From: Phascolomyces articulosus
Taxonomy: Eukaryota; Mucoromycota; Mucoromycetes; Mucorales; Lichtheimiaceae
Reading direction: 5' to 3'
NCBI GenBank assembly: GCA_025677815.1
Contig: JAIXMP010000025.1
Coordinates: forward strand, 248,001-312,000
DNA: 64,000 nucleotides
Shown: piece after piece, positions 21,328-26,804 of the stretch
Position numbering within the stretch: position 1 is the stretch's first letter
Layout of the letters: each line of letters opens with the position of its first letter
The notes under the pieces: generated by a model
Databases searched by the model: none
Seen by the model: only the letters and a program-made list of their open reading frames with translations
What the model was told of the DNA's origin: nothing
Program-made: the position numbers and the translations under genes

Positions 21328-21426
21328 ATGGCCTACTTTACCAGTTTAACATTATGTCAACTCTCGACCAAACAGTTACCCAAAAAGACTTTTAAGTCTC
21401 GAAAACCAAAACAGCATCCTTGTTGA
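21328..21426 (+). promoter_or_regulatory. uORF2 in the bZIP leader (32 codons)
   Basis: Starts in good context (CCAACAATGG), encodes 32 residues beginning MAYFTSLTLCQL with a Lys/Arg-rich second half, and ends at TGA 21424-21426, 49 nt before the main ATG. A third, overlapping frame (21354-21395, 13 codons) lies inside it. The short spacing to the main start means ribosomes that translate uORF2 should rarely reinitiate at the bZIP, as in cpc-1. Confidence 0.7.
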
Positions 21427-21475
21427 AAATTTTTTAAAAGAGAAATTTATTTTGCAAGAAATAATTACTAAGCAA

Positions 21476-22426
21476 ATGTCTACCGTTACTATTACCCAAA
21501 CGAGCAAGAAGCCAGTATCATCCCAAGAATCATTAGAACAAGAACAATATAATCAATATAAAAAAATGGACGATCAACTTTTCCAACAATTTTTCCAGTC
21601 GCTTACCGGCGGCCCTTCTGTCTCCTCTGCTGAGACCACTGCTACCACTACGCCTGCCATCAACACCTTTGTTGGTGACCAACAAGAACAAGAACAATCC
21701 TGGTTGTCTTCTCCCGAATGGTTTGCCATGGGTACAGGTCAACAAAGTGTTCATTCTACTCCAGAAATCGCTACACCTCAAGATATGTTCTTGACTTCTC
21801 CTACCACCGAACATGTTGCCTTTGACAAGCCTGGCTTTGCTGATTTGGATGTCTCTGCTATCTTGAATGCATCTTTGTTTGATGTGCCCCAATCATCTTC
21901 CTCGGCTTCAATGCAAGGTACTTCTGCTGCGCCCGCAGCCGCACCCTCATCCACTACTGGTGGTGATGATTTGCACGCCGCCTTGGCTGCATTGGCAACA
22001 GTGACCCAGTCACCTGTTGTTGCTCAACAACAGCCCGCTACTGCTGTCTCCTCGCCTGTTGTTCAAGAACAAAAGTCGCAAGCAAGCCCTGTCATTGATG
22101 TTACTCCTGCTTTTTCGACTCGCAAGCGAAAGTCAAGTAGTGATGCTGTGTCCCCTGTGGATGAAGCTGCCATCAAGCGTCAAAAGAACACTGATGCTGC
22201 CCGTCGTTCTCGATTACGAAAGGCCATGAAGATGGAAGGACTTGAGAAGCGTGTATCTGATTTAGAGAAGACAAACACCACTTTGCTCTTGCGTGCTGCC
22301 GTGTTGGAATCGGAAAAATCATCCTTACTTGCTAAAGAGGCTTCTTATGAGCAACGTATTAAAGCCTTAGAGGCTCAATTGGCTCAAGCCCACCAATCTT
22401 TAGCTGGTCTTGGTTCTTCTCAATAA
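21476..22426 (+). CDS. bZIP transcription factor, Gcn4/Cpc1-like
   Basis: Single exon, 316 aa. The start is the ATG at 21476 (MSTVTITQTSKK); upstream in-frame sequence has no ATG. The C-terminal basic region reads IKRQKNTDAARRSRLRKAMK, with the N-T-D/E-A-A-R-R-S-R core that defines Gcn4/Cpc1-type bZIPs, followed by a zipper with heptad leucines (LEKRVSDLEKTNTTLLLRA). The N-terminal two thirds are Ser/Thr/Gln/Ala-rich with acidic and hydrophobic patches (LSSPEWFAMG, FADLDVSAIL) that resemble activation regions. Known members activate amino-acid biosynthesis genes under starvation, and their translation is controlled by Gcn2 through uORFs. The leader here carries uORFs and the promoter a Gcn4 site, both supporting this identity. 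Confidence 0.88.
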   Translation: MSTVTITQTSKKPVSSQESLEQEQYNQYKKMDDQLFQQFFQSLTGGPSVSSAETTATTTPAINTFVGDQQEQEQSWLSSPEWFAMGTGQQSVHSTPEIATPQDMFLTSPTTEHVAFDKPGFADLDVSAILNASLFDVPQSSSSASMQGTSAAPAAAPSSTTGGDDLHAALAALATVTQSPVVAQQQPATAVSSPVVQEQKSQASPVIDVTPAFSTRKRKSSSDAVSPVDEAAIKRQKNTDAARRSRLRKAMKMEGLEKRVSDLEKTNTTLLLRAAVLESEKSSLLAKEASYEQRIKALEAQLAQAHQSLAGLGSSQ

Positions 22427-22890: not shown

Positions 22891-24033
22891 TTAATAGTCA
22901 TCGCTTTGATCAGCAAAGAAATGGGTGTATGTAATGACTAGAAATATTAAAAACAAGTGTGAGTTGACAGATCCATCTACTTGTATATTCACCCTTCCCA
23001 CAGTAAGATCTGCTCTTTTTTACTTACTTGTGCCGTATACCAAAATGCCTCCACAAATACTCATAATCATCGCTGGGATTGTAATCTATTATTGAGTTTA
23101 TATATCCATAGTCAATAAAAACATGGTCCCAAAACACTCTATCAAAAAAAAAAACTGTCTGTCTCTGTATCTTACCACTTCAGCATGTGCAAGAACAAAT
23201 GGAAGACCTAGAAAATAAAACATTGTGTATTTCTCTCAGTAAAAAAAAGTTGCTTCTGAGATGACACAGAATAGTGATAGAAAAAAAAAAGCTTTTGATT
23301 TTGCCCACCATCCATCCTTTCCCACAAAAATAAAAAAACTTACAGAATCCAGTTACTATAAACATTCCAGTAATAAAATGGCCGGCATCAACAACGCCAC
23401 TATTATATTCGGACATAAGATCATCTTGGCCGGCACATCGACTGCATAACGCGTTTGGTAATGGTGCTAATACATAGGTAGCCACTAAATCCATAGAAAA
23501 AAAAACCACAAAACCATCAATATATACCATTCCACATACATCTCTTCTTGATTACTTTACCAACTAATAAAGGCCACCAATTGCTAAATTAAAATATATC
23601 AAGCAAGTTAGTTTCCCAAAAACATTTTCATTTGGTTTATTTATCTTTTTTTTTTTTTCAATAGACATATATCCCACTTACTAGTAAAGAGCACAAGATA
23701 ATATTACAAGTAAAAAGCCGATAGCTAAAACAAAAGCCAGGGCAATGATCCTTTAAAAATAATTAACCAATATCAATGTGAGAACCTCCTTTTTTTTTCT
23801 TAATTATATCGAGCCAATTTTATTTATTTTTTTATCAATTCTATAAAAATTGAGGACGATTATTGACTTGACAACCTACGCTATTAAAAAGTAATAGAAA
23901 AAAAATAAATGGGTTAGTTCACTTCATCTTGTATTTGTTATTCGATAAAAAACTAAATTAAAAACATTAAGAATATCCCAATTCAATTAATAATAATAAT
24001 AATAAAAGTATATTTACTTCTTAAACCGGCCAT
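22891..24033 (-). CDS. VPS55: Vacuolar protein sorting protein Vps55 (LEPROT/OB-RGRP family)
   Basis: Read on the minus strand: 24033-24018, 23880 (one base), 23750-23682, 23583-23561, 23484-23344, 23207-23176, 23085-23028, 22976-22891; 426 nt, 141 aa, against 140 for yeast Vps55. The protein starts MAGLRTIIALAFVLAIGFLL, has YYNWWPLL, then the family core YVLAPLPNALCSRC, MSEYNSGVVDAGHFITGMF, and four membrane helices in all, ending FFADQSDDY. With Vps68 it acts in late endosome to vacuole traffic. The first exon ends one base into a codon and the third starts with its last base. The only way found to keep the frame is a one-base exon C, bounded by TTTTTAATAG and GTAGGT, giving ACG (Thr). Confidence 0.87.
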
Positions 24034-24227
24034 TGCTCCGTTCTTATATAAAAGTTGTGTGTATTTGAAAGTTTTTGGGTGCGGGAAGCAAGCGAAGCAA
24101 AAAAAAAAAAGCTTTCTTAGACGCAAAAGCTAGCTAGGAAGCGGCATTTTTTAAAGTTGCTTGGCTATTTGGAAGAAAACTCCGTAGTGGTTTGAAGCCT
24201 TTCTCTTTCTTCAGTTCATACAACGGA
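24034..24227. promoter_or_regulatory. Bidirectional promoter VPS55 / TOM70
   Basis: 194 bp between divergent start codons. A TATATAA-like element (24045-24050) is close to the VPS55 start, and an A-rich run at 24099-24110. Inferred from arrangement only. Confidence 0.45.
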
Positions 24228-26804
24228 ATGTCGACTACCAGTGATCGTGTAAAACGTTTCATTGAAACAAAGGGCTGGAAGTTTTATTGTGCAGTTGTTG
24301 CTAGTATTGCTGTAACAGGAGCAAGTCTGTATTATCTTGTGTCGTCGTCGTCTCCTTCAAAAACACTCCCAGGAGACAATACGTCGTCCAAGGAACAACA
24401 GAGGCGTGATGGAAGTACAGCTAGAGACAGTAATAGTAAGTTGGAAAACCCAAACAACACTAAAAAACGAGACCCCATTTATTATAGTTATTCATTTCAT
24501 AATGGAAAAAGTATTAGATAATTATGAAGGCATGTCTGTTGAAACCATTACAAAACTTTCAACCAAAGTAAGGATTTTTTTTCAAAGCGAAAAAAAAAAA
24601 TATGAGAGCGGTGACGGAAAAATATTCAATTATTGCGATACTTAATGCATGAAAAATAAATATATCCCATAAAAAAATTGATATAGCAACGAGCTGAAGT
24701 AGCACATACATTAAAGGCAAAGGGCAATAGATTATTTGGAGAAAAGAATTGGGCAGAGGCAGCTCGTGTATATACCAAAGCCATAGAATTCAAAGCGGAT
24801 CCCGTATATTACTCAAATCGGGCAGCTTGTTATGCAAATTTAGGTGATAATGATCGAGTCTTTGATGATTGTAATAATGCATTACAACTGAACCCAGTCT
24901 ATATCAAAGCTTTAAATCGACGCGCCCATTCTTTGGAATTGCGTGGGGATAAAGAGGAGGCTCTTTATGGTATACTATTCTTACACATCCACACATCATA
25001 TTATAAGGATGTATACTGATAAATTTATGTTATAAACAATCATAATCCGTGTAGATTATACCTGTGTTTGTATATTAGACAATTTTAAAAATGAAGTAGC
25101 GGCACGATCTGTAGAGAGACTTAGGAAGAAAGTTACTGAAAAGAAGGCTGCAGAAATAATGAAGGTATACACTAAAGTCGCAGTTTGGTTACTGTTATAG
25201 TTGCTATGGAACTAATTATACTATGTACAAAATAGACAAAAAAACGTCGATTGCCCTCATCCAGTTTTGTTAGCGCATATTTTGACTCTTATAGACCAGG
25301 TTTTTTTCTTTCTCTTTTTTCTTTCTTGTCGTCATTACGGAAGCGCTCATATGATGCTCATTACGGTATTGGATTCCTCTTATAGATCGCTCAAGAGCTG
25401 AGCCTATTAAATCATCTGAAAACAAAGGTGATGAGTATTTTTTTAATGCATACAATGCAGTCAAATCAAAGAATTATGAAGAAGCATCTGAATTTTGTGA
25501 TAAAGCTATCCAAGAGGGTTGTTCGCCCGTATATCGAGCCCACGCACTCAATATTCAAGGGACACTTTTGTTTCTCAAGGGTAACGCAAGAGATGCACTT
25601 GAATGCTTTAATAAATCCATCCAGCTTGACCCTAAATATATTCAAAGTTATATCAAACGGTCAAGTATATGTATTGAACAAGGTAATGATATATAATACA
25701 TAATACAGTCATAAGTATATGTTCTTTATGGAAAATGAATCATTAAAAATGATAATTATGTCTGAGCAGGGAATTTGGTGGCTGCTTTAAAACAATTTGA
25801 TGAAGCTCTAGCAATCAATCCAACGGATCCAGATATATTTTATCATCGGTAAACTATATATAAATTATTTTGTTGCCACTGTAATGCATTTTTTTCTAAG
25901 CATTGAATAATTATTTATTATAATTATTTCCCAATAGCGGCCAAGGTAAAAATGGTTTGTTCATTACGATGAATAAGAGTGGGTTTTTTTCTCTAACATT
26001 TGATACGATTTTATACATATAGTTAATTATATAAGTGGAAATTTTCAAAATGCCGCAAAAGATTATAGTGAGAGTATCAAACTGGATGATTCTTTTATAT
26101 ATGCGCATATTCAACTGGGTGTGACCAAATATAAGCTGGGTCAAATTGATTCATCCGTGACAACATTTGAAGAAACACTCAAGAAATTTCCACAATCATC
26201 TGAAGTGCATAATTACTTTGGTGAACTCCTAGTAGAACAACAGAGTTTACCACAAGCATTAGAAATGTTTACAAAAGCAATTGCGTTAGATCAAAATAGT
26301 CCATTACCCTATATTAACAAGGCCACGTTGACATATCAAGTCATGGGTGATCCAAATGAAGCCATTCGATTATGTAAAATGGCTTTGAAAGGTATGATAT
26401 GTTTTCATTCATCAAAAAGATCCTGTTATATGTATTATGATACTGATGGCCATGAATATATTATTATTATTATTAGTGGATCCAGCTTGTGATGCAGCAG
26501 TAGCATCTTTAGCACAAATTTTGTTAGAACAAGGGAAATTAGAAGAGGCATTAAAGTATTATGAAACCGCGATTGATTTAGCGCGTACAGAGGCTGAAGT
26601 TGAACATGCATTATCATTCGTAGAAGCGACAAAAGCACAAATACGGTAAAAATATATCATTTTCATATTCATTTAAAATAACACTGATAACGACAATCGC
26701 AAATATATCTAAAACTGACATGATCATTTAAAACTTGTATTAGATTCGCCAAAGATTACCCACAGCAAGCAGCAGAAAGTTTAGCAAAATTACATCGAAA
26801 ATAG
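24228..26804 (+). CDS. TOM70: Mitochondrial import receptor Tom70
   Basis: Eleven exons: 24228-24435, 24530-24567, 24687-24969, 25055-25164, 25236-25299, 25386-25682, 25770-25848, 25938-25945, 26023-26391, 26477-26645, 26744-26804; 561 aa. An N-terminal membrane anchor ([20 protein letters not shown]) follows a short intermembrane tail. An acidic/Ser linker leads to TPR repeats: three at the N-terminal side ([20 protein letters not shown], the clamp that binds Hsp70/Hsp90 tails) and about seven or eight more after the [15 protein letters not shown] segment characteristic of Tom70. It is an outer-membrane receptor for carrier-type preproteins. The ATG at 24228 is chosen because upstream in-frame sequence has none. 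Exon 8 is only 8 nt. Confidence 0.92.

Follow-up and report, generated by a model that had tools for sequence, protein, structure and literature searches.

Can a single nucleotide be spliced into an mRNA as an exon of its own? This question is raised by the gene for VPS55, a small protein of membrane trafficking, in the mucoralean fungus Phascolomyces articulosus; the gene lies on the minus strand at positions 24033-22891 of the window, the 64,000-nucleotide stretch of DNA analysed here. The coding exons on either side of a C at position 23880 can be joined in frame only if exactly one base is added, and this C has an AG acceptor directly before it and a GT donor directly after it (TAG/C/GTAGGT), with introns of 137 and 129 nt on its two sides. 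Inclusion of the C restores the conserved protein sequence MAGLRTIIALAF. Judging from the sequence, we put the probability at roughly 0.92 that the C at 23880 is a genuine single-nucleotide exon of P. articulosus VPS55 and is spliced productively; the introns around it are likely to be removed successively.

Structure of VPS55 and the base at position 23880

The assembled protein scores 157.8 bits against the Pfam Vps55 profile, and a search of the 47.4-Mb genome returned this Vps55 locus only. No PDB chain similar to Vps55 was found at an E value of 0.001. The coding sequence comprises 387 nt, or 128 amino acids and a stop codon, and not the 426 nt and 141 amino acids of the preliminary description; it is divided into exons of 16, 1, 69, 23, 141, 32, 58, and 47 nt. 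Exon 1 (24018..24033) reads ATGGCCGGTTTAAGA followed by an A, which gives MAGLR and the first base of codon 6; a MAG[LV][KR] start is common among relatives. Intron 1 (23881..24017; 137 nt) runs from GTAAAT to AATAG and contains a CTAAC branch-like motif at 23913..23917, with no AG between this motif and the acceptor. Its 3' end is a T-rich tract terminating in TTTTTAATAG, then comes the C at 23880, which is exon 2 and the middle base of codon 6 (ACG, Thr), and then GTAGGT, the beginning of intron 2 (23751..23879; 129 nt), which ends in TTTTTAAAG. Exon 3 (23682..23750) starts with a G, the last base of codon 6, and continues with IIALAFVLAIGFLLVILSCALY (TM1, the first membrane helix), so that its border reads AAAG/G ATC ATT. 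The predicted spliced reading across exons 1-3 is AAGAACGATCATT. The gene is completed, on the same minus strand, by exon 4 (23561..23583), exon 5 (23344..23484), exon 6 (23176..23207), exon 7 (23028..23085), and exon 8 with the stop codon (22891..22937). The exon borders, the missing base, the branch-like motif, the pyrimidine tract, the acceptor, and the donor are all as the preliminary description had them.

It should be mentioned that two other coding regions lie nearby. In divergent orientation, at 24138-25700, there is a gene whose ORF encodes a hydrophobic stretch and which continues in TPR exons (Pfam TPR_1/TPR_2); we take this gene to resemble the mitochondrial import receptor Tom70. 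On the plus strand, the ORF at 21350-22426 has a bZIP domain, matched by bZIP_2 and bZIP_1 of Pfam.

A plain 267-nt intron between exons 1 and 3 can be rejected, since the two exons are one base out of phase. We enumerated every canonical GT-AG path that leads from the ATG at 24033 into TM1 by way of one intron or two, each of at least 30 nt. There are 18 such paths (28 if GC donors are admitted), and the path through the single-nucleotide exon is the only one that keeps MAGLR, one residue, and IIALAFVLAI. If exon 2 is extended from the same acceptor, it reads ACG TAG and stops immediately, as had been pointed out earlier. Errors of splicing at this junction would each be unproductive: skipping of the C gives 13 amino acids and a stop, retention of intron 1 gives 16, and retention of intron 2, with the same immediate stop, gives 6. 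A single-nucleotide exon that supplies Thr-6 is by far the best reading of the sequence.

The deposited protein of this gene, P0001 (vacuolar protein sorting 55 [Phascolomyces articulosus]), equals a spliced product of the window over 135/135 residues, with the C included. This match needs both the single-nucleotide exon and a donor of exon 4 that lies 21 nt further down. P0001 contains Thr-6, which means that the C at 23880 is used in the deposited model, in agreement with the threonine proposed earlier. As for the second difference, exon 4 of P0001 is extended over 23540-23560 (21 nt) to a GTATGT donor at 23539, which changes WPLLVVATY to WPLLVGKVIKKRLATY. In other words, GKVIKKRL replaces one residue, a net gain of 7 residues, within a conserved stretch that is lengthened in no other row of the alignment in which it is intact (P0032 is scrambled there). 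This extension probably reflects an error of the model, or else a minor isoform. The odd donor at 23539 is the reason why P0001 is not clearly transcript-based, and the model may be ab initio.

How easily could such a site arise by chance? The 267 nt between exons 1 and 3 contain a single AG-N-GT. Among 20,000 dinucleotide shuffles of these 267 nt, a bare AG-N-GT (26.5%) and YAG[CG]GT (6.1%) are both common; YAG[CG]GTRNGT at a usable distance occurs in 0.125%, YAGCGTRNGT in 0.03%, and YAG[CG]GTRNGT with an upstream branch site in 0.01%. Over both strands of the 64-kb window, YAGCGTRNGT is unique to this site. For intron lengths, a reference set was taken from nine Cpn60_TCP1 genes of the same genome, in which introns were placed heuristically: of 26 exon pairs, one was skipped (overlap), two were unsolved, two were dropped for their length deviation, and 21 introns were kept. 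These have a median of 138 nt (range 84-329 nt), so that the VPS55 introns of 137 and 129 nt are near the median, and a single intron of 267 nt would also fall inside the range. The AAAG acceptor of exon 3 is a minority form, A being found at position -3 in 4/21 reference introns.

Codon 6 and its junction in related fungi

Conservation across relatives was read from deposited protein models, namely 218 distinct proteins from three protein searches, which had 904, 838, and 1900 matches and from each of which the best 120 were taken; scans of prokaryotic and of viral contigs for VPS55 DNA yielded no relative. Among the matches listed, 175/218 proteins, P0001 included, have the normal N-terminal pattern, and in these 175 the position just ahead of IIALAF is occupied by T (163 proteins), S (9), or R (3). 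The preliminary description had asked whether the Thr after MAGLR is conserved, and in the great majority of these 175 it is. T, S, and R are exactly the residues encoded by A-C-N and A-G-N, which is expected if a fixed A from exon 1 precedes a C or a G. Within TM1, I7, I8, L10, F12, V13, L14, and A15 are invariant in an alignment of 14 sequences; codon 6 itself lies 25 codons ahead of the conserved WW pair.

The proteins that depart from this pattern are unevenly distributed. With a slightly stricter pattern, and with groups assigned by hand from the listed names, a normal N-terminus is missing in 13/27 Mucorales proteins and in 18/23 from other early-diverging fungi (mostly Mucoromycota) among the matches listed, compared with 14/168 of the remainder (mostly Dikarya, unnamed metagenome proteins, and two chytrids). 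These abnormal N-termini, some of which are partial records or starts at an inner Met, and several of which among the 14 are small variants (MPGLKT), are a sign of trouble at the junction and not a tally of single-nucleotide exons. A single-nucleotide exon may explain the 13/27 listed Mucorales proteins that lack the normal N-terminus.

Do any of these models reveal the same arrangement? Fifty proteins from relatives were screened in shifted frame for the exon 1 or the TM1 motif anywhere in the first 60 residues. The exon 1 motif was matched in P0014 and the TM1 motif in P0021, P0044, and P0104. Among 4000 random 60-mers, 71 match the exon 1 motif and 216 the TM1 motif; since matches at any place are thus expected by chance, only tests at the exact junction carry evidential weight, and the TM1 matches of P0044 and P0104 are taken as chance. 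In P0021 of Cunninghamella echinulata, MAGLR is followed by a stretch in which 22/22 TM1 residues are possible in the shifted frame (0/3000 shuffles, the best of which reached 10), and the A of exon 1 is joined straight to T-ATC, one base short. In P0014 of Pilobolus umbonatus, NGRFKK-IIALAF is compatible, when the frame is shifted, with ATG GCN GGN TTA ARA A/R ATH, and here too a base is missing; at this exact junction 15/300,000 random hexapeptides would match. Phascolomyces, a member of the Lichtheimiaceae, Cunninghamella, and Pilobolus represent three families. The one-base gap in the Cunninghamella and Pilobolus protein models suggests that the exon may be at least as old as the ancestor of the Mucorales, and the single-nucleotide exon is probably conserved across this order.

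Other models appear to circumvent the junction in different ways. P0023 of Thamnidium reads MAGLRTIGFLL, P0010 of Mucor plumbeus reads MAGLRSKF...IIIIA-IIALAF, and P0032 of Lichtheimia hyalospora reads MAGLRTYVSS...YSS-IIGLAF. P0010 and P0032 can be read as coming from species that each have one of the two introns; annotation work-arounds, in which one intron is retained since a 1-nt exon does not fit the gene model, agree equally well with the proteins, and we think them the better explanation. Each of P0023, P0010, and P0032 seems to get round one and the same difficulty at this junction by a route of its own, which is suggestive and no proof.

Two further observations concern this part of the protein. 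In Phycomyces blakesleeanus, the two deposited models P0027 and P0103 differ at residue 6 (MAGLKS vs. MAGLKT); it looks as though the single base or the choice of splice sites was not the same in both, unless the strains differ. Calcarisporiella thermophila, from another phylum, has two VPS55 proteins, P0193 and P0030, one of which (MAGLRSEHDF...YLA-IIALAF) apparently includes translated intron-like sequence at this junction, a hint that an intron stood here before the Mucorales arose.

Alternative readings of the junction

The strongest competitor dispenses with the tiny exon altogether. Exon 3 contains an alternative acceptor, TTTTGTTTTAG immediately followed by CTATCGG, whose AG (23725..23726, minus strand) is in frame with exon 1. 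A single 293-nt intron would then join exon 1 to a protein of 119 amino acids, MAGLRT-IGFLLVILS..., with a shortened TM1. This intron is canonical GT-AG, has a good pyrimidine tract (TTTTGTTTTAG), and finds a counterpart in the deposited Thamnidium model P0023, which has the same form. It loses, however, the nine TM1 residues IIALAFVLA, seven of them invariant in the 14-sequence alignment and all still intact in the window; it lowers the Pfam Vps55 score from 157.8 to 149.3 bits, leaves the AG-C-GTAGGT site to chance, and is not used by the deposited model of this gene. We consider it very unlikely as the explanation of the gene. The AG at 23725-23726 could yield a TM1-shortened isoform of VPS55. 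An error of assembly or sequencing is less probable still. A base lost near 24018 or 23750 would leave a normal single intron of 267 nt, a gap of this size is what an indel error typically leaves behind, and a loss at the border of exon 1 could mimic the present arrangement; such an error could also give Arg-6, which is present in 3/175 of the listed normal N-termini. Against an assembly error stand the models of two other genera, in which one base is missing at this same place, and the fact that the base that gives the commonest residue of the family lies between an acceptor and a donor.

We give hardly any credence to the two readings that change the coding exons themselves. In one of them, exon 1 is non-coding and translation begins at another start codon, for example, the ATG at 23927, with an intron at 23922-23751 and a protein beginning MK-IIALAF. 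This is the only one-intron path into the in-frame IIALAF from any ATG between 24250 and 23750, but a MAG[LVM][KR]-type start is found in 175/218 listed proteins and an MK-II start in 0/43 of the others listed, MAGLR is encoded at 24033 together with a donor, and the donor AA/GTGAAC is weaker. The other makes exon 2 longer, for example, a 13-nt exon at 23798-23786 that yields MAGLR-KKKRR-IIALAF. It has canonical dinucleotides and is in frame, but it needs a second intron of 35 nt and a GTTCTC donor, and it adds four residues that are absent from all 175 listed normal N-termini. Two special arrangements can also be set aside: this is not a stwintron, as neither intron lacks any part of its GT or AG end and one exonic base lies between the two, nor a zero-nucleotide recursive splice site (ratchet point), as the site reads AG-C-GT and the frame needs one base to be kept.

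Probable splicing of the exon and comparison with known cases

One nucleotide cannot hold the 3'-splice-site and the 5'-splice-site machinery simultaneously. Exon recognition is hardly to be expected for a single nucleotide, and the two introns would most likely be removed in succession, each through intron definition. If intron 1 were removed first, the full donor context AAC/GTAGGT would be formed; if intron 2 were removed first, the junction would read AATAG/CGATC; either order would lead to the identical mRNA. Skipping or retention would lead to stops after 6-16 codons, so that splicing here would act as an all-or-nothing gate on the protein. We infer this stepwise removal by analogy with Arabidopsis APC11 and the fungal stwintrons. 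An origin of the pair by tandem duplication of one intron is unsupported, as introns 1 and 2 do not resemble copies of one another (local alignment score 20, reached by 168/300 shuffles).

In Arabidopsis APC11, a single-nucleotide exon was demonstrated by cDNA sequencing and altered reporter constructs, and its authors suggest intron definition with stepwise (recursive) removal (Guo and Liu 2015, PMC4674806). It shares with VPS55 the length of one nucleotide, and differs in gene and kingdom (PMC4674806). The APC11 exon is described as conserved in plants (PMC8831610). A case like it was not found within the APC11 domain in the P. articulosus genome, where the best of three APC11 matches is uninterrupted over positions 2-64 of 65 and the others are weak and partial. 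The fungal stwintrons (spliceosomal twin introns; bioDA [D2,3] and lipS [D1,2]) are reported to be removed consecutively by intron definition, and their internal intron can arise inside an older intron (PMC5639578). Likewise, VPS55 has two introns at one place, for which we propose consecutive removal; whereas stwintrons are nested, the VPS55 introns interrupt no motif of each other and are separated by one exonic base (PMC5639578).

Among fungi, the closest parallel is CYP621A of Fusarium, where a single-nucleotide exon with read support provides the middle base of a Gly codon; its authors call it the first in a fungal gene (Nelson and Syed 2026, PMC12940212). Both are fungal nuclear genes in which the middle base of a conserved codon lies between phase-1 and phase-2 boundaries, and both were found through an impossible exon join; the Fusarium exon is conserved across a lineage, as that of VPS55 probably is (PMC12940212). 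They differ in that the Fusarium base is a G (AGGGT) and not a C, that its gene is an ascomycete P450, and that it was seen in SRA reads, whereas the VPS55 exon is read from sequence (PMC12940212). A mitochondrial single-base exon has been described in placozoan cox1 (PMC5436844).

The closest parallel by gene comes from plants. Plant VPS55 (cluster 2) has a conserved 1-nt microexon near the N-terminus, supported by RNA-seq and RT-PCR; in Arabidopsis, 13 residues are lost when it is omitted (Yu et al. 2022, PMC8831610). The gene Zci_4861 of Zygnema also has this microexon, and microexon tags of that set were not found in Chlorophyta (PMC11096116); the 1-nt VPS55 exon is conserved in land plants and Zygnema (PMC8831610, PMC11096116). 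The likeness to our case extends to the gene family, the N-terminal position, the length of one nucleotide, the conserved downstream donor, the omission from annotations, and the alternative products formed when it is unspliced (PMC8831610, PMC11096116). The difference is that the published exon belongs to plants and streptophyte algae and not to fungi, and what those accounts offer allows the two to be likened by gene and N-terminal position, not by codon or phase. If a plant VPS55 sequence is aligned to the fungal TM1 without gaps, fungal codon 6 presumably corresponds to about plant codon 16, which would argue against the same codon.

In the literature searched, no earlier report of a single-nucleotide exon in a fungal VPS55 was found. 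The earlier statement that one-base exons are almost unknown holds in that the class is very small, but it is not limited to the one example in Arabidopsis that had been named: the single-nucleotide nuclear exons documented in the accounts we found are those of APC11, of VPS55 in plants and algae, and of Fusarium CYP621A. With P. articulosus VPS55, an early-diverging fungal phylum joins this list, and the case probably extends to a whole order. What makes the finding most interesting is that the plant case concerns the same gene, and the presence of a 1-nt exon in this gene in both plants and fungi is either a striking coincidence or a very old homology. That the exons of Mucorales and streptophytes are one ancient feature, inherited from the plant-fungus ancestor and lost from most lineages through intron loss, seems improbable to us, though by no means negligible. 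If it were true, an exon of the least possible length would have persisted for 1 billion years or perhaps longer, because skipping of the base or failed removal of either intron ruins the frame. VPS55 thus offers a system in a filamentous fungus for the study of how the spliceosome handles an exon too short for recognition.
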